This document shows positions 1-63,174 of a DNA stretch of 64,000 bases, in pieces. The notes under the pieces were generated by a model, which worked only from the letters and a program-made list of their open reading frames with translations, was not told where the DNA came from and made no database searches. The stretch covers positions 9,999,029 through 10,063,028 of the forward strand of contig NC_135185.1 of the NCBI RefSeq assembly GCF_041146795.1, given 5' to 3'. How positions within the stretch are numbered: position 1 is the stretch's first letter; every line of letters begins with the position of its first letter. The translations under genes and the position numbers were made by a program. Source of the DNA: Maylandia zebra. Its lineage: Eukaryota > Chordata > Actinopteri > Cichliformes > Cichlidae.

Positions 1-271
1 GTGGCCTCTGTGGGAGGGGCTCCAGGGCCTGATCCTGTGGATTACCTGATGAATGTGAGCAGGTCTCTAACCCGCGGCGTCTCCAGGAGGCGCTGTGGGC
101 TGAAGCTGGAAGTGATAGACTGTATATAAAAGATGGCCATATCCACCGTGACATCTTAGGCTTTGGTTTGGGAGGTGTTGGCGTTAACAGAGGGGGCGGG
201 GCCGAGTGTAATAGCCGGGCTGCTATGATTACTCTGTGATGGACGTCTAAGCGTGTGTTTCCTTTCCGCAG
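1..271 (+). other. pxdn intron (3' part)
   Basis: This is the intron before the first visible pxdn exon. It ends in a good pyrimidine tract and acceptor (cctttccgcag). I could not identify another exon in it. Confidence 0.75.
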
Positions 272-3200
272 CGTTTCGCTACAACGACCTGGTGTCCCCC
301 CGCTTCCTGGACATGATCGCCAACCTGTCTGGCTGCACGGCCCACCGCCGCATCAACAACTGCTCGGACATTTGTTTCCACCAGAAGTACCGCAGCCACG
401 ACGGCACCTGCAACAACCTGCAGCACCCGATGTGGGGCGCCTCGCTCACCGCCTTCGAGCGGCTGCTGAAGTCCGTCTACGATAACGGTTTCAACCTTCC
501 GCGAGGCGCCACCGACCGCGTCCATAACGGCTACAAGCTGCCGCTGCCGAGGCTGGTGTCCACCACCATGATCGGATCGGAGACCATCACCCCCGACGAC
601 CGCTACACACACATGCTGATGCAGTGGGGTCAGTTCCTGGACCACGACCTGGACTCCACGGTGGTGGCTCTGAGCCAGTCCCGGTTCTCCGACGGCCAGC
701 TGTGCGCTCAGGTGTGCACCAACGACCCGCCCTGCTTCCCCATCCAGTTCCCGCCCAACGACCAGCGGCAGCTGCGGAGCGGCGCCCGCTGCATGTTCTT
801 CGTCCGGTCCAGCCCGGTGTGCGGCAGCGGGATGACGTCTCTGCTGATGAACAGCGTTTACCCGAGAGAGCAAATCAACCAGCTGACCTCCTACATCGAC
901 GCCTCCAACGTCTACGGCAGCTCGCGGCACGAATCGGAGGAAGTCCGCGACTTGGCGAGCCAGAGGGGTCTCCTGCGGCAGGGCATCATACAGCGGACGG
1001 GCAAGCCGCTCCTGCCGTTCGCCAGCGGGCCGCCAACCGAGTGCATGAGGGACGAGAACGAGAGTCCCATTCCGTGCTTCCTCGCCGGAGACCACCGAGC
1101 CAACGAGCAGCTGGGTTTGACCGCCATGCACACCGCGTGGTTCAGGGAGCACAACCGCATCGCTACAGAGCTGCTGAGGCTGAACCCCCACTGGGACGGG
1201 GACACCATCTACCACGAGGCCCGGAAGATCGTCGGCGCCCAGATGCAGCACATCACCTACAGCCACTGGCTGCCCAAGGTAACGGCTCCGAGCTGATGGC
1301 GCCCGCGCTGCTCAGCTGATCATCAGGTGAGCTCAGGGTTAGCATGAGTGTGACAGCCCGGGACACAGAGAGAGGGAGGGGCTCACTTCATTCAGCTGTT
1401 TAATGTAAAAGTTGCAGCCAATGAAACGCTTCTCTGATGATGTCACAGCAGGCAGACTAACCCTCCTCTTCTCTCAGATCTTAGGTGAGGTTGGCATGAA
1501 GATGATGGGGCCGTACGGGGGCTACGACCCCAACGTGAACGCCGGCGTCTTCAACGCGTTTGCCACCGCCGCGTTCCGCTTTGGCCACACCCTCATCAAC
1601 CCGATCCTGTACAGGTTAGATGAGGACTTCCAGCCGATCCCGCAGGGCCACATCTCGCTGCACCGGGCCTTCTTCTCGCCATTCCGCATCGTGAACGAGG
1701 GCGGCATCGACCCGCTGCTTCGCGGGCTCTTCGGCGTCGCCGGTAAAATGCGTGTCACCACGCAGCTTCTGAACACCGAGCTGACGGAGCGGTTGTTCTC
1801 CATGGCCCACGCCGTGGCTCTGGACCTGGCCGCCATGAATATACAGCGAGGGAGGGACCACGGCATCCCGCCGTATAACGACTACAGGACCTTCTGTAAC
1901 CTGACGTCTGCTCGGACCTTTGATGACCTAAAGAACGAGATTAAGAATCCGTCGGTCAGAGAGAAGCTGCAGAGGTGGGCGTGGCCTCAGACAGGCTCAG
2001 TGTGACTCGCCAGAGTTATGGTATGAGCTCAGCGTGTTTCTATTTCCTCGTGTTGCAGGCTGTACGGCACGCCTCTGAACATCGACCTGTTCCCCGCCCT
2101 CATGGCTGAAGATCTGGTCCCCGGCAGCAGGCTGGGCCCCACCCTCATGTGTCTCCTCACCACTCAGTTCAAACGCGTGCGTGACGGCGACAGGTAGGTC
2201 AACCTTTCAGTACCGAACTGTCGCCGAGCGTCACGTGACCGCAACAAATGAATCCTATTTCTCTCCTTCCTGCCGTGTTCAGGTTCTGGTACGAGAACCC
2301 CGGCGTGTTCACGCCTGCCCAGCTGACCCAGCTGAAGCAGGCGTCCCTCGCCCGGGTGCTGTGCGATAACGGCGACAACATCACGCGCGTACAGCGCGAC
2401 GTGTTCAGGGTGGCCGAGCTGCCTCACGGCTACATCAGCTGTGACGACGTCCCTCAGATCGACCTGCGCATGTGGCAGGACTGCTGCGAAGGTAAGAGTC
2501 AGCAAACGCTCGCTTTATTCTTCAGTTTACTCGACAGCTCAGATCACGACGACCAGGATACCTTAGCAGACGTTTGTTGTTTTCAAAACACAAACATTTA
2601 TTTTAAGCTTGAATAAATTAAACTCCACTGAATAAATCACTGGTTGAATATTAGCATTCGAGTGTATCCCAGATGTGTTGTACAGCTGCAGCCCTGAGCA
2701 AGCGCAGAACAACAAATAGAACAGCCTGCAGACCCGTGAGGGCGAGAGGAGCTTTCAGGACGTTGTTTGGTTTTGGTTGTTTTTCTGATCTTAGCTGAGA
2801 CAAAGTGGCTCTGTGGTCACAGAGGTCGCTGTCTCTGCTTCAACCTTTTAAAGTTTATTTTTGGCCCGTAGTGTGAATTTGTTGCACAAATCTGATCCCA
2901 GTTTTATTATTTTATACTGGTGCATGAAAACAAACCTCCATTATTAAAAAGAGGCTTTTATTGCGGTTGGAGTGATCTCAGTGTTTGATGTAAAGGTTTA
3001 GTCAGGAGTTTAATCACAGGATGGAAACATGTTTTCTTCTTTAAAGAGGAAGCAGACGCTGGTGATGAGTCTGCTCTCTGACTGCAGCCTCTTACATACT
3101 GCACATATTCACTGTATGAGGAGAGCAGAAACAATAAACAGAGAATATAGCTGCGTTTGCTAACAGTGACACGTGTGTGTTCGCTTTTATGTGTCGGCAC

Positions 3201-13739: not shown

Positions 13740-14345
13740 AAAAGCTGAAAAGTTGCAGAAATTGTAAAAGCTTTGCAGAAGCAAAAGAAGTTTGCTAAAA
13801 TGGAATAACTTAGCAGAACTGCAATATCTTAGAGGAAACATAATACTTGGCAGAAATACAATAGCATAGCAGAATTTAGCAGAAATATTGTAACTTACCA
13901 GAAACATGATAACTTCTCAAAAATACAAGAATTTAGGAGAAATAGTATAAGATAACAGAAAGAATATATTTAGCCAAAAATACTTAAACATTACAGAAAC
14001 ACTATGATTTAGAAAAATAGTACAACAGAGCAGAAATATTGTGATTTACCAGAGACACTGTGATGAACTATGAATATTGTAATTTTAAATTAAGACTATG
14101 TTTTAGCACAAATATTATAATTTGGCAGAAATACTATAATTTAGCACAAATACTATAAAAAGCAGAAATACTATAATTTAGCAGAAATACTATATTAAGC
14201 ACAAACCCTATAAAAAGCAGAAATACTGTACTATGATTTGGTAGAAAAAACTATAATTAATCAGAAATACTATATTTGGCAGAAATACGGTGTTTGGCAC
14301 AAATCTTATAAAATAGCAGAAATAGTATGATTTAGCACAATAGTA
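13740..14345. repeat. AT-rich degenerate tandem array, first block
   Basis: Short units of about 18-22 bp on the theme tagcagaaatactata(attt) repeat with drift. No gene is supported; the reading frames on the opposite strand are composition artefacts. Confidence 0.7.
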
Positions 14346-14596
14346 ATAAGTTAAACAGAAAAATTGGAAAAGCAAAAATGGACAGCTGAAAAAATGATGA
14401 ACATGGTGAACGTCCCTCAACTATACTTGTTAAATGAAAAAAATCAGCAAAAAAATCTATAACAGCCACACAATCACAAATATGTACACATAAGAAAACA
14501 CACATGCACAGAGAGACACACACACAAGATCCAATTCAGTCAACCAGTCTAAATATATTGAATTTGAATATTAGAATGAGATCATCCCATTAAAAG

Positions 14597-15003
<407 letters not shown>

Positions 15004-15008
15004 GGATG

Positions 15009-15290
15009 ACTTGTTGACTTAGAAGCCACGAATTCCCCAATATGCAAATTTGAATACCTGGAGCCCACATACATGATTGGCTGGCTGGGAAGCTGTGCAG
15101 GCCCTGATTTGTGGATTTGAATTCCTCAGCCCTCAGATATGATTGGCTGGCTTAGAAGCCACGAAGGCCCCAATATGCAAATTTGAATGCCTCAGGACAC
15201 TTATTTGATTGGCTGGGAAACCGTGCAGGCCCTGATTTGAAAATTTGAATGTCTCAGTCCTCACAGAGGATTGGCTGCCTGGGGACCTGG
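15009..15290. repeat. 66-bp tandem array with ATTGG and octamer words
   Basis: The word GATTGGCTG occurs at 15075, 15141, 15207 and 15269, which gives periods of 66, 66 and 62 bp. Units alternate between an 'aagccacgaa...ccccaatatgcaaat' type and a 'gtgcaggccctgattt' type. Perfect ATGCAAAT octamers lie at 15042-15049 and 15175-15182. ATTGG is an inverted CCAAT box. Any regulatory role is inference. Confidence 0.8.
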
Positions 15291-15294
15291 CAGA

Positions 15295-15900
15295 AATATA
15301 TAGAAATACTATTATTAAGCATAAATACTACATTTAGTAGAAATACTATGTTTTAGCACAAATATTATAAAAAGAAGAAAAACTATAATTTAGCAGAAAT
15401 ACTATATTAAGCACAAATCCTATAAAAAGCAGAAATACTATAATTTAGAACAAATAGTATAAAAAGCAGAAATACTATAATTTAGCAGAAATACTATGTT
15501 AGGCACAAATCCTATAAAAAGCAGAAATACTATAATTTAGCAGAAATACTATGTTAGGCACAAATCCTATAAAAAGCAGAAATACTATAATTTAGCAGAA
15601 ATACTATATTAAGCACAAATCCTATAAAAAGCAGAAATAGGATGATTAAGCATAAACACTACATTTAGTAGAAATACTATGTTTGAGCAAAAATCCTATA
15701 AAAAGCAGAAATACTATATTAGGCACAAATCCCATAAAAAGCAGAAATAGTATGATTAAGCATAAATACTACATTTAGTAGAAATACTATGTTTTAGCAC
15801 AAATAGTATAAAAAGCAGAAATATTGTAATTTAGCAGAAATACTATATTAGGCACAAATCTTATAAAATAGCAGAAATAGTATTATTTAGCACAATAGTA
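15295..15900. repeat. AT-rich tandem array, second block, with 55-bp units
   Basis: Exact 55-bp units start at 15461 and 15516, followed by a slightly diverged one at 15571. Each contains aaaaagcagaaatactataa, an ATACTATGTTAGGC-type core and caaatcctat. The flanking sequence is more degenerate. Confidence 0.85.
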
Positions 15901-28328: not shown

Positions 28329-29432
28329 TTAAGCGCTGAACGACGACATGTTGTTGGAGCCTTCCGACAACTTCAGCCCTGACACGCAGATCTCGGACGT
28401 GCCACGTGACGAGCGAGCGGTGTAGATGTACCTTTTGCTGAAGCACCAGAGGTCCAGCATGATCTGGCGGAAGTGGTTCCTGAACTTGACCCCGACGAAG
28501 GCGTAGAGGAAGGGATTGAGACAGCAGTGCAGGTAAGCGACGGTCCTGCAGATGTTGAGAAATTTGAGTTTAAGGTTCTCGGCGTCGCAGCTCCTCTGCT
28601 TGAACAGAGACAGCATGTGGATCAGCAGGGTCACGTTGTACGGAAGATGGCAGACGATGAAGACAGCAACGACCGCCAACACCACCCGGACGGCCTTGTG
28701 CCGCTGGTTGCTCTGCGCCCTCAGCAGCGTGTAGATGATGCAGGAGTAGCAGAACGCCATCATGCACAGTGGCAGCAGGAAGCCAACAGCCATCTGGAGG
28801 CTGGGTACCAGCAGCTTCACGAGCGCCGCAGTTTCAGTCTGGTTGAAAGACATCTGACACATCACGGTGACGCGGTCAGACCCCGGGGAGTTATCTTCAG
28901 AGGGTTCAGTGTAGATGAGCGTGGGGAGAGTTAACGCCACTGCAAACACCCAAACCGCCAAGCAGATCAGGCGGCTGTAGACGAGGGCACGGGAGCGCGT
29001 CCCAAAGGAGCGCGTCGCCCGAACAATCGCGATGTACCGATCGCAGCTGATACAGGCGAGCAGCAGCATGCCGCTGTAGAGGTTAATGCTGTAGGACGAC
29101 CGGAGCACCTTACAGGCCACCCTGCCCATCGACCAATCGTGCTGCTCGTTGTATATGACGAACGGAAGTGTAGCCACGAAGATCAGGTCGGCCACGGCCA
29201 TGTTGAAGAGGTAGACGTCCGTCATGGTCTTGGTTCTCTTGTAGAAGCTGTAAGTCACCATCACCAGGACGTTGCCAATCAGGCCGAATCCGCAGATGAT
29301 GGAGTGGATCAAAGTCTGGGTGATGACCTCACTGGCGTCAGGATCCATGATGCAGAAGCCGTCGTCATCGATATATGTCTCAGTACCGTTGTCATAGTCA
29401 CCGAATGTCGCGTTTGCAGGACTCTCCGTCAT
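28329..29432 (-). CDS. ccr6: CC chemokine receptor, CCR6-type (complete)
   Basis: This is a 367-residue class A GPCR in one coding exon. It has an acidic N-terminus with NAT and NGT glycosylation sites and tyrosines in acidic context (DYDNGTETY, sites suited to sulfation). Seven hydrophobic segments follow. TM1 has GLIGNVLV, TM2 MAVADL, and TM3 ends in DRYIAIV. TM6 has CHLPYN, and TM7 LHCCLNPFLYAF before KFRNHF. The DRYIAIVRATRSF segment, the RHKAVRV loop, the LHCCLNP run and the DLWC tail fit CCR6 better than CCR7 or CCR9. CCR6 binds CCL20 in mammals and guides lymphocytes and dendritic cells; the fish ligand is not shown here. Just 5' of the ATG is a splice acceptor (cttttcttctccag), so a non-coding exon lies upstream. 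Confidence 0.85.
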   Translation of the reverse strand: MTESPANATFGDYDNGTETYIDDDGFCIMDPDASEVITQTLIHSIICGFGLIGNVLVMVTYSFYKRTKTMTDVYLFNMAVADLIFVATLPFVIYNEQHDWSMGRVACKVLRSSYSINLYSGMLLLACISCDRYIAIVRATRSFGTRSRALVYSRLICLAVWVFAVALTLPTLIYTEPSEDNSPGSDRVTVMCQMSFNQTETAALVKLLVPSLQMAVGFLLPLCMMAFCYSCIIYTLLRAQSNQRHKAVRVVLAVVAVFIVCHLPYNVTLLIHMLSLFKQRSCDAENLKLKFLNICRTVAYLHCCLNPFLYAFVGVKFRNHFRQIMLDLWCFSKRYIYTARSSRGTSEICVSGLKLSEGSNNMSSFSA

Positions 29433-31093
29433 GTTTGCGACCTGGAGAAGAAAAGAAACATGATGAGTGAAGCACTGACTGGAGACATTTGCAGAAGGAC
29501 CTGAAACACGCTGTCAGTGAAGCTTTGATCATGTGATGTTGTTCAGGTTGAGCAATGAGAAAAGAGACTTCAGAGAGGATCTCCGGCCTCCATTGTTCCC
29601 AGTAGATCTGACGTGTTATTTAATGCTCCACCGCTCACAGAAACCAGACGTTGTACATTGTAAAAAACGCTTGTTTATAAAGAATTAAAACACATAAATT
29701 GTGAATGTTTCCTGAAAGCTGTCCAGCTGCTGCGCTGCCTGGGTTCGCCGTCCTGGAGCCGACCTTTCTCGTGTCTTTGGGTCAGTCATGTTGACATCAA
29801 GGATCCCTCCAGCGTGAAGTGTCTGACGTGCTACATGAGCTGAAGCCGCGGCGTCTGCTTCCACCAGTCAGTGAAGGTCTCGCAGTCACATGTGGGTGTT
29901 TTGGTCTGTGCCTCTAATAGCTTCCTGTTTCTGCCACGTATCCACATAAAGCCGCCACAGCAGCTCCGACCTTAAACTTCAGCACAGTGTCTTTGGTGGT
30001 TTTTGTGTTCCTGTCTGCTCTGTGCCACATAACGATCTCTTCTCCAGATGAGTCTGTCTCATCCATTTAACAGCAAACTCAGCAGAACGAGTCTGAGACG
30101 CAGATGCAAAAGTTTCAGGACACTGAAGTTGTAAAAGTTTACACACCGCCTGATTTCTAAATGTATGATCGTGTGACGAATAATATTGTAATAATAATTT
30201 TTAACATTGAACCAATTTTAATTTGAATCAGATCCTTTGATTTGAAGGAAAACTTTGTAACATCAGTTGTGTTGGGTAGTTTGTGATGTGATTCTCACAA
30301 ACAGCTGAATTACTGTGATTTCTGTCCTGATCTAAAGCTGCAGTTTTACTTCCAGATGTAGAAATCTGTGGTGCCAAAAAAAAAGCCAAAATTAATCATC
30401 TGTGTGATGACACCAAAGGAAAGCCCTGTGCCATCATTAGAAAGCAGGTTTGACCTCTGACAGACCACTGCGCTGTCTGATGAAAGAAGATATGAAGAGT
30501 TCAGCACCAACAATACAAATCAATCCAGCACAGCGTGCACCCTGCACACACCGGGGGTTGAGACTCCTCACACCTTTTCTGGTGGTTTCAGAAAATAAAC
30601 CATCGTTCTGTGTCAGCTGTTCCTCTGGTTATGAATGACCCACTTTCAGCCCGAGGCGACGCCTGCACAGGTACGCCGTGCTTTGTGCTTCGCTTAGAAA
30701 ATGATCCGATTGTTATCAGAGGGCATCTCAGATGTAATGAGGTCAAAAAACAAACACTAAGAGCCAAACTGAAGTGAGAAAATCACAAAAAAGGGAGTGC
30801 AGAGGCTTTGTGTCTGCAGAACTGCACTTTTTTGCATTGTTCAAACACAAACGAAGATTCTCTGAATCAGATTCTGATTTCTGAAGAAGCCGGCGAGCTC
30901 TAACCTCCAGTCCGGATAACATTTCATTCACTCGTTAATTTATTTATTTGTCAATAAAACTATGCTGTCGGATGAGAAGTTAAAATCGGTCTAGATGCAG
31001 ACAAACCAAATATAATGATGTCAAATCCAAACAGTCAGAATCTTCACAGACTGGCTTTTACTGCTGAGTTTAACTGTTTAGTATTTAGTATTT

Positions 31094-36985: not shown

Positions 36986-38273
36986 TCAGACCAGAGCCTT
37001 ATTTAACACCTTCTGAGCGTCTTCAGCGAGCTGGTTGAGGATAAAGTTCAGAACTCTGTAGGTTGTGACGAAGGAGAGGCTCATGGCTACCGGGATTCCC
37101 ACTATCGGAATGAATCTGGATACTTCCTCTGCTCCAATTAATCCAGCTGCTCCTCCAAGTTGGGCGAACACCTTCAGGAAGAGCTCTTTAGTAATTTCCT
37201 TCGCAGCCACTGGTGAAATGATGACATCACGCAGCTCAGTGTATGACACAGCTGTTCTGATAGCGAGTCTCTTCAGAGATTGGACATCGAGACCAAACGC
37301 ATGTACAAAATGTGTGACAGCACCAATGAGCACAGCAACATCAACAGCAACAGAAAGCCCAGGAACGGGAACAGCTGCAGCAGCTGCAGACAGAGTGGCC
37401 AAGAGGTATAAGTGTACCTTTAAAGCCTTTTTCTTCTTGCTGATGACGTCGGGGTTGACGTTGGGCATGACATACAGCAGAGTGTCTCTCTTATCTTTGG
37501 GAAGCTCTGTCTCTAAGGTCTCTTGTAAGAGAGAGAAGTCGTACTTGTGGAGCTGAAAACTCGACATTAGGAAGACTCGTGGAGACTCGATGCCCAAGTC
37601 TTTGAGTCCTGCGTCACAGAGGAAACATGTCAACACCATCAGATTCATACAAATAAAAAACGATTAAAAACGAGATTTAAATGATTTTGAAAACTCGACC
37701 TCACTCACGTTGAACGCAGTCGTCTCTGATTTTTGTGAGAGTTTTCTCTTTGCTGGAGTCGGAAACACTTTCCTCGGCTCGGATATCGTTGTCAATCTTT
37801 GAGCGAACAAAGTAGAAATTTTTCTTCATCTTCTGAATCTTCTGAGCGAGTTTCACGTCATTTTCTCTGAAGCGAGTGTCTGAGATGATGAGGAAGAAGT
37901 CATACTTGTCAAACCCAACAAGCTTCAGGTATTTCCTTGCTGGGAAGTCTTTGGTTCCGATTCCAGGAAGATCCCATAAAGTGACGTTGGGATTATCTGG
38001 ATGGGGGTACGGTGTGACCTCCGACGTCGTTTCTGTAACACCAGTAGGAGCAGCTCCCTCGTCTCTGTTCTTTATCCCCCTGAAGGCATTAATAAAGGTG
38101 GATTTACCTGCACCACTTTCTCCTGTGATGGCGATATTTAACGAGACATTGGTTTGCTTTTCTAAATATTCTTTAATCCTTTTTGCTGCTCCGGCCGTGT
38201 CGTTGTTCTTCAGGGCTTCTTTAACTCCAGGAATTTGTTCTGGGCACGAATCATCTGGATCCTCCATGCTCAT
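36986..38273 (-). CDS. Immunity-related GTPase (IRG family), two coding exons
   Basis: Exon 38273-37709 and exon 37608-36986 join across a consensus intron to encode 395 residues. The G domain has a P-loop GESGAGKS (residues 51-58, canonical lysine type), DLPG (101-104) and a G4 motif read as SKID (158-161). The C-terminal half is the helical IRG domain with an alanine/valine-rich hydrophobic segment (SAAAAAVPVPGLSVAVDVAVL). IRG proteins are interferon-inducible GTPases that act on vacuoles and membranes holding intracellular pathogens. The first of two in-frame ATGs (38273 and 38267) follows a splice acceptor (tttctttctgtcag) directly, so a non-coding exon lies upstream. A decayed inverted copy lies at 58-63 kb. 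The subgroup (irge/irgf-like) cannot be fixed by eye. Confidence 0.93.
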
Positions 38274-38717
38274 CCTGACAGAAAGAAAAACATAAAGACT
38301 TTTATTTTGGAATGCAGACATATACTATTGATAATCAGTAATGTTACTGACGGCACACGGACACAGCACATGTGGGCAGTAAGTGATTAAAGGTAAAACG
38401 TTAAATGTCGGTAAAAGACGTGTTTATATGAGAAAACACTGAGGCCACCAAAGTCTCTTCCTGGGGTTTGTTGAGTATTTTTACATCCAACATTAACATT
38501 AATTTACAAATAATATCTTTCTATAAACCTGAAACTTTTCCTTTTCCTTGACTTGAAAAAATAATTTGTGCTTATTCTCATTCTTGTTCTGATAGGACAG
38601 CAAACCTGTCACTTAACTAAGTTTAAGGTAACAGCAGGTACTCACTGGATTCTTCGTACTGTTGACACACACACAGCTGGATCAGCAACAACAGCGATCG
38701 GTGCTTCAGTTTGTTCT

Positions 38718-47302: not shown

Positions 47303-48325
47303 TCAATACTTTGTAACATAACCTTTGTTGGCAATAACAGAGGTCAAACGTTTACTATAGGTCTTTACCAGGTTTGCACACACAGTAGCTGGTATTTTGA
47401 CCCATTCCTCCATGCAGATCTTCTCGAGAGCAGTGATGTTTTGGGGCTGTCGCCGAGCAACATGGACTTTCAACTCCCGCCACAGATTTTCTATGGGGTT
47501 GAGGTCTGGAGACTGGCTAGGCCACTCCAGGACTTTCAAATGCTTTTTACGGAGCCACTCCTTTGTTGCCCGGGCGGTGTGTTTTGGATCATTGTCATGT
47601 TGGAAGACCCAGCCTCGTTTCATCTTCAAAGTTCTCACTGATGGAAGGAGGTTTTGGCTCAAAATCTCACGATACATGGCCCCATTCATTCTGTCCTTAA
47701 CACGGATCAGTCGTCCTGTCCCCTTGGCAGAAAAACAGCCCCATAGCATGATGTTTCCACCCCCATGCTTCACAGTAGGTATGGTGTTCTTGGGATGCAA
47801 CTCAGTATTCTTCTTCCTCCAAACACGACGAGTTGAGTTTATACCAAAAAGTTCTACTTTGGTTTCATCTGACCACATGACATTCTCCCAATCCTCTGCT
47901 GTATCATCCATGTGCTCTCTGGCAAACTTCAGACGGGCCTGGACATGCACTGGCTTCAGCAGCGGAACACGTCTGGCACTGCGGGATTTGATTCCCTGCC
48001 GTTGTAGTGTGTTACTGATGGTGACCTTTGTTACTTTGGTCCCAGCTCTCTGCAGGTCATTCACCAGGTCCCCCCGTGTGGTTCTGGGATCTTTGCTCAC
48101 CGTTCTCATGATCATTTTGACCCCACGGGATGAGATCTTGCGTGGAGCCCCAGATCGAGGGAGATTATCAGTGGTCTTGTATGTCTTCCATTTTCTGATG
48201 ATTGCTCCCACAGTTGATTTTTTCACACCAAGCTGCTTGCCTATTGTAGATTCACTCTTCCCAGTCTGGTGCAGGTCTACAATACTTTTCCTGGTGTCCT
48301 TCGAAAGCTCTTTGGTCTTGGCCAT
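47303..48325 (-). CDS. Tc1-family transposase, intact frame (340 aa)
   Basis: This is a DD34E cut-and-paste transposase. It starts [10 protein letters not shown], with an N-terminal paired-like helix-turn-helix region (about residues 1-110, including [20 protein letters not shown] and a GRPR-like SGAPRKIS linker). The catalytic triad can be read as D153 (WSDETK), D244 ([10 protein letters not shown]) and E279 ([11 protein letters not shown]), with 34 residues between the last two. Length is normal for the family and there is no stop or frameshift. Nothing here shows expression, and the nested insertion in the right repeat could impair mobility. Confidence 0.95.
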
Positions 48326-48500
48326 GGCGGAGTTTGGAGTCTGACTGTTTGAGGCTGTGGACAGGTGTCTTTTATACAGATGATGAGTTCAAACAGGTGC
48401 CATTCATACAGGTAACGAGTGGGGGACAGAAAAGCTTCTTACAGAAGACATTACAGGTCTGTGAGAGCCAGAGATTTTCCTTGTTTGAGGTGACCAAATA

Positions 48501-50430: not shown

Positions 50431-52220
50431 CCGTATTTTCACGACCATAAGGCGCACTGTGCTAAAAGGCGCAGTCTCAGTTATGTGTGCCCTTACTGTA
50501 TTTAACACACACATAAGGCGCACTGGACCATAGGGCGCATACAAGTACCGTATGCGTATTTAAAAATAAAGCGGGAGCAAACCCGAGTTCGGTACCTTAC
50601 TCACATTTCTATTACCGGTAATTGTCATCATCAACAACACACAAGCATACAAGTGTGCGTATTTAAAAATAAAGCAGGAGCAAAACAAAGTTTGGTACTC
50701 ACATTTTTATCATCAATCAAACCCATCAAAGTCCTCATCCTCTGTGTCTGAATTGAACAGCTGCGCTAAATCTCCATCAAACATGCCAGGTTCACGGTCT
50801 TCACCGTCAGAGTCACTTTCCGTGCCGTGCGGCTCCTCGGAAACGATGCCGGCTTTTGCGAAAGCTCGAACAACAGTGCCAGCAGACATGTTAGCCCAAG
50901 CATGTACAATCCATTGGCAAATTGTGGCGTAACTCGCCCGGCGCTGCCTTCCACTCTTAGTGAAACTGTGGTCTCCACCGGTCATCCATCGCTCCCACGC
51001 CGCTCGCAGCCTTACTTTGAACGGGCGGTTCACACCGATGTCCAGCGGTTGGAGTTCCTTTGTCAGGCCTCCCGGAATGACAGCAAGCTCACAGTTCATT
51101 TGCTTCACAAGTTTTTTCACATCGGCTGTGAGATGGGCACGCATAGAGTCACAGATCAACAGCGATGGTGATGCGTGGAAAAAACCACCTGGTCTCCTTA
51201 CATACACCTCCCTCAGCCACTCTTTCATCATTTCCTCATCCATCCAGCGCTTTTCATTTGCCTTAATGATGATTTCTGCTGGAAACTTCTCTTTAGGCAA
51301 AGTCTTTCGCTTAAAAATCACCATAGGCGGCAGTTTCTGTCCATTAGCATGGCAGCCAAGCACAACAGTGAAAGAAGACTTTTCATACCCCGTTGTGCGT
51401 ATCACTACCGTGCTGGTCCCCTTCTTCTCCACAGTGTGACTCACCGGGATGTCAAAAGTGAGCGGGACCTCGTCCATGTTTGTGATGTGGCTGGGCTGGA
51501 TGTTTTTGTCGCCGATGTGTTTGCTGCAGTAGGAGCGGAAGATGGCCAGCTTTTCCTTATACCGGTAATCCGCTGGAAGTTGCTGCGCTACCATAGTCCT
51601 GGTCCGGATGGAAAAATGGCACAGTTTCATAAAACGAAAGCACCAAGACGGACCTCCTTGGAAATGTTCAATGTTCATCTTTAAGCTAGTGAAACTGCTT
51701 TTAGCCGAATGGTGACCGTCGAAACGCTTCTCCCGCTCGCTCTTTGCTCGATGATCCACCGCTCGAGTCTTTCCTCCAGCTCGGGCCACCTCGCCTTATG
51801 TCCGCGGAAACTCAGCTGCGTTTTCTTGACCTGCCGGAGCTTGTTTTCCAGCTTCCTCCATTTGCGAACCATCGATTCGTTAATCTTAAATTCTCTCGCC
51901 GCTGCTCGATTTCCATGTTCCTCCGCGTAGCTGATGGCCTTCAGTTTAAACTGTGCTTCGTAAGCGTGTCTCTTTGCCATTTTCAGGGTTGTTAAAACAA
52001 CGATGTCCTGCATAATGCACATACCTGTTCTTTTATACAGGTATGTGCGATTGTCCCGGTATATACGATCAATGCCCACACTTCACCCTTTAGCGTTCTC
52101 ATGGTGTTCTCTACTACGTCCTCCTTACAACACATAGGGCGCACCGCGCTATAGGGCGCGCCGCACTTTTTGAAGAAAATCTAAGACTTTTAAGTGCGCC
52201 TTATGGTCGTGAAAATACGG
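50431..52220 (-). mobile_element. Pogo-superfamily DNA transposon
   Basis: The inverted ends CCGTATTTTCACGACCATAA are flanked by TA (50429-50430 and 52221-52222). GGCGCA words recur near both ends. It holds one transposase gene on the - strand, which is frameshifted once. Confidence 0.92.
50713..51980 (-). pseudogene. Pogo-type transposase with one frameshift
   Basis: The N-terminus MAKRHAYEAQFKLKAISYAEEHGN followed by AAAREFKINESMVRKWR is a helix-turn-helix of the Brinker/psq type. A second DNA-binding segment (PELEERLERWIIEQR) follows. After a frame change near 51684 comes the DDE nuclease: NMDEVPLTFD, LLICDSMRAHLT and KELQPLDIGVNRPFK. The acidic tail ends DSDTEDEDFDGFD. Apart from the shift the gene reads open, so the copy is young. 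It is related to the source of host POGK-type genes, but it lies within transposon ends and is not a host gene. Confidence 0.88.
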
Positions 52221-59315: not shown

Positions 59316-59321
59316 TTTATT
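59316..59321 (-). terminator. Polyadenylation signal of the deaminase gene
   Basis: AATAAA on the - strand (context gtgaataaagtcaatc) lies about 190 bp past the stop codon, with no other - strand gene between. Confidence 0.6.
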
Positions 59322-59507: not shown

Positions 59508-60358
59508 CTAGCTCTTCCTTTTCTTTACATCACTGTCTGTCTGACTGCCTGAGTCTAGTGAATGAGCTCTCTTTGCACTTTGCTTTTCCTGGTTAGTCTC
59601 ATAGCACTCATCAACAATGTCGTTTGTTTCTGAGAAGCATCTGATGCAGTGAAATGGACCGCTCTCTGGTTTGTAACAACGGAATATATATTGATCACCA
59701 ATCACCTCTGCAATTGCAGTCAGAGCTTTTTTCAACTCATCTTCAGGAATGGACCTTTGGTTTTCCGGTTCAGAGTAAGGTTTCTGAAACACAAGTGCAT
59801 ACTCTTTGCCCCAGCTTGTCATAAAATCAATAAATTCAAGGATATGTTTCTTGCTATCTTTGTCTGCACATCTGTCTGAACATGGAGACAGATATGTGTA
59901 GATGAGCAAGAAGTTATCAGTGCGTTCATCCTTCCACTCATCCATAATGTGTTTCAAAACACGGTATTCTGCATGGTTACCATAAGGTTTTGCTGCAACC
60001 ACTGAGTCACCATAATAAAATTTCGCATTTCCGTTGAAAGACTCTTGCATCTTTGCATCTGTGTCGCGTGAAAGCACCGCTTCAAGGTCCTGATTCAGCT
60101 GATTCTCCTGGTTCACCAGGTTCCCTGGGATCTTCACAGCAGCACAAAACTGGTCCCTTTCTGTATACCTGCCAAATAATGCAAACTTTAGAGAAAGCCT
60201 TTGATGTGTGACTGATGCTGTTGGTGTCCTCACCTCGTCCTGATGATTTCTACAGTTTTAGTCAGCCACTTCACATTAACATCCCCCAGACTGGTTCCAG
60301 CTGACAGCAGCAGGGCCAGCACGGTCCAGGACAGCAGAGACCTTTGCATACCTGACAT
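59508..60358 (-). CDS. Secreted AID/APOBEC-like cytidine deaminase (SNAD type)
   Basis: Two coding exons (60358-60234 and 60168-59508) join in phase to encode 261 residues. The first gives a signal peptide (MSGMQRSLLSWTVLALLLSA, cleavage likely near residues 20-25). The second gives a deaminase zinc site: H107-A-E109 in YGNHAEYRV, and P137-C138-S-D-R-C142 in YLSPCSDRC. H/C ligands plus a catalytic Glu in an HxE...PCx(2-4)C arrangement define the cytidine deaminase fold. With a signal peptide and two-exon structure it fits the SNAD clade described in fish by Krishnan, Aravind and colleagues. Several further cysteines suit an extracellular protein. The C-terminus is basic (KKRKS). Substrate and activity are unknown. 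A promoter and poly(A) signal flank it, and there are no stops or frameshifts. Start: the first of two in-frame ATGs. Confidence 0.85.
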
Positions 60359-60463
60359 GATGTAAACTGCACACCTGCACAGGTCACATTGGTGTTATTA
60401 CAGCTCAGCACAGGCTGACTTCTGCCAAAGTGTCTGCCACACTGCACGACAGAATCAAACTCA

Positions 60464-60530
60464 CCTAAGAGCCGGAGTCGAATCGTCTCACCTGTGGAGT
60501 CGACGGGTTGCTGTTTGGTGACTGAAGCTC
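60464..60530 (-). other. Probable 5' non-coding exon of the deaminase gene
   Basis: On the - strand a donor (cggctcttag|gtgagttt) near 60464 pairs with an acceptor (gtgacctgtgcag) just before the start codon, giving a short intron. The exon would begin about 25-30 bp after the TATA box. A second possible donor (ccacag|gtgagacg) lies inside it. Confidence 0.5.
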
Positions 60531-60548: not shown

Positions 60549-60556
60549 TTTTATAA
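60549..60556 (-). promoter_or_regulatory. TATA box of the deaminase gene
   Basis: TTATAAAA on the - strand, at the expected distance upstream of the inferred first exon. Confidence 0.6.
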
Positions 60557-62699: not shown

Positions 62700-63174
62700 G
62701 AGTGATCAACCCAGAGATAATCAGCAAGAAGAAATAAGCTCTCAAGCGCCGATTATATTGGTTGGCCACTCTGTCTGCAGCTGGAGCAGCTGTTCCAGTT
62801 CCTGGTCTCTCTGCTAAAGTTGATGCTGCTGTGCTGGTTGGTGCAGTCACAGATTATGTTCATGCATTTGGTCTCAATATCCTGTTTTTGAAGAGACCTT
62901 TTTACAGAACAGGTGTGCCCTACTCTTATCTGCGTGCTGTCATCATTTCACCACTGACTGCAGCAGAAATAACTAAAAAGCTCCTCCAGAAGGTCATGAC
63001 CCAACTTGGGTGCGTAGCTACATTAATTGTAGCAGAGGAAGCATCCAGATTTATTCCATTCATTGGAATCCCAGCAGCAATGCGTCTCTCTTTCACAACA
63101 AAGTTATGAATGTTGTCCTCAACCAGCTCACTGAAATTGCTGAGAAGGTGTTTGAAAAAGCTCTGGGTCTGTAA
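62700..63174 (+). pseudogene. IRG GTPase pseudogene, 3' piece of the second exon
   Basis: It reads INPEIISKKK, then an in-frame TAA where the intact gene has a lysine codon, then ALKRRLYWLATLSAAGAAVPVPG. It continues through ITAVxxYVHAFGL-type text and EEASRFIPFIGIP to LSFTTKL. A frameshift near 63105 is followed by VVLNQLTEIAEKVFEKALGL and a stop. This is collinear with the C-terminal half of the intact IRG gene. The 3' flank also matches: aaaagacaatgaaactg after the stop and the tcactgccctccagtggtca segment near 63570 correspond to the flank of the intact gene. Confidence 0.92.

Follow-up and report, generated by a model that had tools for sequence, protein, structure and literature searches.

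What would a deaminase of the AID/APOBEC kind do outside the cell? The question is raised by a compact gene in a stretch of 64,000 nucleotides of Maylandia zebra contig NC_135185.1 (positions 9,999,029 to 10,063,028, forward strand), the whole of which is called the window here. An initial annotation described this gene as encoding a secreted AID/APOBEC-like deaminase akin to the SNAD proteins of fish. According to the analysis reported here, the product is almost certainly a member of the SNAD1 family. The overall evidence is best explained by a secreted SNAD1, a zinc-dependent deaminase of the AID/APOBEC side with a tail that would hold its substrate, a reading to which we assign a probability of about 0.6.

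The family assignment is carried by the Pfam profile SNAD1 (PF18744), which matched the 261-residue product with an E-value of 1.3e-17 and 64.9 bits against a curated cut-off of 25. The profiles SNAD4, SNAD2, APOBEC_N, dCMP_cyt_deam_1 and APOBEC2 stayed below their own cut-offs, among them SNAD4 (PF18750) at E 0.0022, dCMP_cyt_deam_1 at E 0.011 and SNAD2 (PF18745) at E 0.0066 and 16.7 bits against a cut-off of 25, so that the protein does not qualify as a SNAD2. Comparison by sequence with the Protein Data Bank gave five chance-level matches only (best E 0.14). The predicted structure has a deaminase fold of the AID/APOBEC type, and among the 50 structure matches listed for the model all 50 were AID/APOBEC proteins. 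The profile search and the structure prediction that the initial annotation had proposed thus agree with its assignment to the AID/APOBEC-like SNADs, as far as a model can tell in the case of the fold, and the former narrows it to SNAD1. Members of this family, which was named recently and is related to the antibody-mutating enzyme AID, have been described before (PMC11004436, PMC9207270, PMC13402138; citations in this text refer to the parts of each paper that were covered), and the gene is an additional member of a known family, otherwise ordinary.

Relatives were collected by single-sequence search (9 proteins), by a near-copy profile (28) and by a wider profile (44), giving 60 proteins in total, with related species and paralogues counted separately. 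A source name was available for 37 of them, which we take to be spiny-rayed fish; the other 23, whose ends may be cut, were left out of the named counts. 'Uncharacterized protein' is the label of most named relatives; two take their name from zebrafish si:dkey-96g2.1, and for P0034 and P0054 one source additionally gives a ferret label, taken for a labelling fault. The near copies P0001-P0007 are 90-97% identical to the window protein. Viral capture of the gene was considered and rejected, as none of 102 pattern matches in viral contigs was confirmed as a relative. The zinc motif of the window protein is made up of two segments:

59967..59975, minus strand: HAE, residues 107-109, with the predicted zinc-ligand His and proton-shuttle Glu (by motif; H[AS]E in 36 of 37 named relatives)
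59868..59885, minus strand: PCSDRC, residues 137-142, with two predicted zinc-ligand Cys (by motif; PCx2-3C in 34 of 37 named relatives)

With 27 residues between the segments, HAE and PCxxxC stand at deaminase spacing, as the initial annotation had claimed. The spacing HxE-x27-PC-x3-C fits because it falls within the deaminase pattern HxEx25-30PCx2-4C (PMC11004436). Of the 60 relatives, 36 share the C-x3-C spacing of the zinc cysteines seen in the window protein, 23 have C-x2-C, and P0028 has neither. The window SNAD1 is quite probably an active enzyme. In P0014 (tuna) and P0017 the HAE segment is partly duplicated, the intact HAE being preceded by a modified copy, DAE.

The gene lies on the minus strand (60358-59508) and has two coding exons:

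60234..60358, minus strand: coding exon 1 (125 bases), with start codon, signal peptide and first domain helix, assigned from homologous N-termini; the helix is placed from relative P0018, whose exon boundary is assumed by homology
60169..60233, minus strand: intron of 65 bases, GT-AG, phase 2, with ends GTGAGG...TTTGGCAG
59508..60168, minus strand: coding exon 2 with stop (661 bases), encoding the deaminase domain and the C-terminal tail

The exons 60358-60234 and 60168-59508 join in phase to a coding length of 786 bases (125 + 661, stop included), and the gene is complete as first described, with a separate upstream exon. The join is supported because annotated fish proteins span it in one piece, running from a hydrophobic leader through the exon-1 residues into the start of exon 2 (12 N-termini aligned, window included). 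In Anabas P0019, for example, WTVLVFLLSAGACNADVNLNWL is continuous where the window protein reads WTVLALLLSAGTSLGDVNVKWL. Seven of the nine relatives from the single-sequence search are unspliced reading frames beginning within the same intron, and these near copies (P0001-P0007) therefore provide no transcript evidence. In a model of the full-length tuna relative P0018, the exon-1 counterpart after the signal peptide forms a helix (residues 21-36; mean predicted local confidence, pLDDT, about 90), which suggests that exon 1 gives part of the fold in addition to the signal peptide. A cytosolic form made by intron retention was judged unlikely; although the exon-2 frame contains no stop within the intron, the first ATG available in it is that of residue 81, beyond strand 1, and the product would be without the start of the domain. 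No further SNAD copy was found in the window by tblastn; beyond the two exons there were six matches, all at E 1.8 to 9.2, and the DNA of the gene matched only itself in the window. Zebrafish SNAD1 genes have three exons and those of carp two or three (Table 1, PMC11004436). Around the coding exons the following signals were located:

60550..60555, minus strand: TATA-like box TATAAA, about 200 bases 5' of the start codon (position only)
60375..60464, minus strand: possible intron in the 5' untranslated region, weakly predicted from consensus sites (AG-GTGAGT donor at 60464, CAG acceptor ending at 60375), which would give three exons; a second AG-GTGAG consensus donor lies at 60491
59316..59321, minus strand: AATAAA polyadenylation signal, 3' of the stop (motif match)

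The product is very likely secreted, as far as this can be predicted from sequence. The feature concerned is:

60284..60358, minus strand: signal peptide predicted from hydropathy and from the relatives, covering residues 1-25, with cleavage before D26

The N-terminus has a hydrophobic core with an 11-residue Kyte-Doolittle mean of up to 2.4 and small residues at -1 and -3 of the TSLG/D cleavage site. A loose hydrophobic-run pattern occurs within the first 60 residues of 36/37 named relatives, so the same layout recurs, in line with the earlier prediction that the upstream exon supplies a signal peptide. Among the AID-like enzymes of multicellular eukaryotes, only SNADs are described as having a secretion signal (PMC8201067). 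For some carp SNAD1s, presence in seminal plasma or blood is documented (Table 1, PMC11004436), and nurse shark SNAD1s are present in plasma (PMC9207270). The published support drawn from these two papers consists of this presence in plasma or seminal plasma and of SNAD1 expression under infection and temperature change. No catalytic activity or substrate of SNADs is reported in the parts of the literature covered.

Behind the zinc motif the protein carries two further elements:

59604..59678, minus strand: C-terminal cysteines, residues 206, 216, 219 and 230 (alignment of 24 sequences)
59511..59603, minus strand: C-terminal tail of 31 residues following the last cluster Cys, predicted to be disordered, with a net charge of +2 and the basic clusters KR and KKRK

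All four cysteines lie from strand 5 onward; C206, C216 and C219 are invariant in the 24 sequences and C230 nearly so. Cys 216, 219 and 230, with 206, are the counterpart of the SNAD three-Cys cluster, which has been read as disulfides (PMC11004436). Among the window protein and P0001-P0007, variable sites are more frequent in loops 1, 3, 5 and 7 (8/28) than at other domain sites (20/163; one-sided p 0.03), in a small sample of related sequences with loops placed by the author from the model. A four-residue insertion in loop 7 is present in four of these seven near copies, and one of them has a ten-residue duplication after strand 1. Within the limits of that sample, the variation is what would be expected if substrate-facing loops evolve fast, a view quoted in PMC9207270.

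In the region of the tail, residues 193-219 of the 219-residue model, pLDDT is below 50. Tails of at least 20 residues are present in 28/37 named fish relatives, and 26 of these 28 have a net charge of +2 or more. As a control, the charge of each long tail was compared with that of any equally long stretch of the core of the same protein; this was computable for 26 of the 28, the tails of P0028 and P0041 being too long, and it is a thin control given the few equally long core stretches. The tail charge was above the control in 18 of the 26 and not above it in 8, and the charge of the window tail does not exceed it. RS or SR pairs number eight or more in 15/37 named relatives (2/11 first seen in the near-copy profile search and 13/26 in the wider one). 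In composition the tails span RS repeats, as in tuna P0041 (+43), and lysine-rich repeats, as in lumpfish P0028 (+64). The latter protein (Cyclopterus lumpus) is without HAE and PCxxC, has kept the later Cys cluster and contains eight copies of KGGKVRKQ; its public name, oleosin GRP-17-like, looks wrong. The pattern KR[ASTR][HR][SP]xD followed by a basic cluster, devised after the sequences were seen, was found in 11/61 sequences, namely the window protein, P0001-P0008, P0015 and the cichlid P0023. A function of the tail is favoured because this pattern is common to the window protein and the distant P0015 (44% identity) and P0023 (31%). A term search of the SNAD1-titled papers PMC11004436 and PMC13402138 gave no mention of basic or disordered tails or of nuclear localisation in the parts covered, and a literature search joining tail and deaminase terms found no paper.

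Overall, the preferred reading is that secreted SNAD1 would carry out zinc-dependent C-to-U deamination of single-stranded nucleic acid, and that it would act in defence. The disordered tail would most likely serve, through its basic clusters, to keep nucleic acid or other polyanions close to the active site. The chances of a nucleic-acid-directed defence role appear about even. A wider proposal is offered tentatively: SNAD1s of spiny-rayed fish may be secreted effectors in two parts, a deaminase and, joined to it, a disordered C-terminal module that changes quickly and is often polycationic (RS-like, RGG-like or lysine-rich). The module would capture nucleic acid or bring the enzyme into target cells and their nuclei, and at least one protein, lumpfish P0028, would have kept the module and lost the enzyme. 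If true, this would tell where an extracellular deaminase meets its substrate. Should the basic tails retain nucleic acid or promote uptake, the route of an extracellular mutator to its target would be explained as well. The tails are the part deserving specialist attention. Two points call for caution. Proteins with tails may be over-represented in the sample, and tails of low complexity are liable to drift. A basic tail was present in 7/11 named relatives from the near-copy profile and in 19/26 from the wider profile, and tailed relatives are possibly over-sampled because the query alignment of the wider profile contained RS-rich tails. On a tree made by a quick method the tail state changed at least 9 times, with gain and loss not separable; its 46 rows are the window protein, 36 named relatives (P0035, near-identical to P0034, was left off) and 9 without source name, for which tail states were counted though their ends may be cut.

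The same tails allow other explanations. SNAD1 could be mainly a secreted binder of nucleic acid or polyanions (microbial surfaces, free DNA or RNA), in which case the basic tails would be the working part and catalysis would be of minor importance or not needed. The number of long basic tails, their excess of charge over the core in 18 of 26, their range from the RS repeats of P0041 to the lysine-rich ones of P0028, and the loss of the zinc motif beside a retained Cys cluster in P0028 speak for such a binder. It is nevertheless unlikely, since the conservation of H[AS]E and PCx2-3C in all but one and all but three of the named relatives makes the catalytic residues look selected in most of them; moreover, the window tail is short, weakly charged and not above control, and 11/37 named relatives are without a long basic tail. 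Another possibility, quite unlikely and argued from analogy, is that secreted SNAD1 is taken up by infected or phagocytic cells, is directed to the nucleus by the basic clusters and mutates viral or retroviral DNA there. The secreted RNase angiogenin is a parallel for such a route. A classical bipartite nuclear localisation signal consists of two basic residues, a linker of 9-13 and a basic cluster. The window tail reads KR-x14-KKRK, and its single cluster KKRK fits K[KR]x[KR], but the linker of 14 falls outside the allowed range, so that the window protein and its near copies fail the bipartite pattern. The shared KR[ASTR][HR][SP]xD pattern would suit this route, but it was written post hoc and short basic clusters are common. 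Endocytosis as the means of uptake has been proposed in PMC9207270.

There is a slender chance that the protein acts as a deaminase on nucleosides or nucleotides that are free in plasma or mucus; the structure matches listed were all AID/APOBEC, the profile family is SNAD1, and dCMP_cyt_deam_1 was matched below its cut-off only. That the gene is a decaying, non-working copy is very improbable. Transposon pieces and a fragment of an IRG (interferon-inducible) GTPase gene do lie within the window, but the frame is open, the splice sites and zinc motif are intact, and the TATA-like box and AATAAA are present. The compact gene and intact frame make it a good candidate for expression. The surroundings of the SNAD1 gene comprise:

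229-2005, plus strand: frames for an animal haem peroxidase (PF03098, E 1e-106 and 1.2e-48), possibly a myeloperoxidase-like gene
13873-15895: tandem repeat block, mostly AT-rich, with periods such as 19, 37, 55 and 92 bases
28329-29513, minus strand: single open frame for a rhodopsin-type receptor (PF00001, E 1.8e-60), chemokine-receptor-like by eye
36989-38324, minus strand: two open-frame pieces of an IRG GTPase (PF05049, E 6.8e-64 and 3e-22)
47303-48388, minus strand: Tc1-type transposase, uninterrupted frame of 361 codons, with HTH_SB and DDE_3 domains
50713-52082, minus strand: DDE_1 transposase, Pogo/Tigger-like by eye, in two overlapping frames
62738-63106, plus strand: C-terminal fragment of an IRG, sharing 64% identity over 99 residues with the piece at 36989, without a Pfam match of its own

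The last of these starts about 2.4 kb from the SNAD1 start codon. No RNA family reached the gathering score in the window.

Among known systems, the window gene is most readily set beside the SNAD1s of other fish. It is like zebrafish si:dkey-96g2.1 and carp Cap31 with its paralogues in profile match, signal peptide, zinc motif spacing, C-terminal Cys cluster and a structure of two or three exons; this likeness was assessed on features other than the tails, that of the window being a short KR...KKRK. Fish SNAD1s in PMC11004436 have CVxxC with the same spacing, whereas the window protein has Ser instead of Val after the first zinc Cys. The plasma SNAD1 of nurse shark, likened here by description, has the same domain and is extracellular (PMC9207270). 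SNAD2 and SNAD4 belong to the same superfamily, with the window protein below their cut-offs. APOBEC3 and AID have the fold and zinc motif in common with the window protein. Relative to the usual APOBEC topology, the window model appears to have two extra helices between strands 1 and 2. Unlike the window protein, APOBEC3 and AID are without a signal peptide (PMC11004436), and its C-terminal cysteines also set it apart from them.
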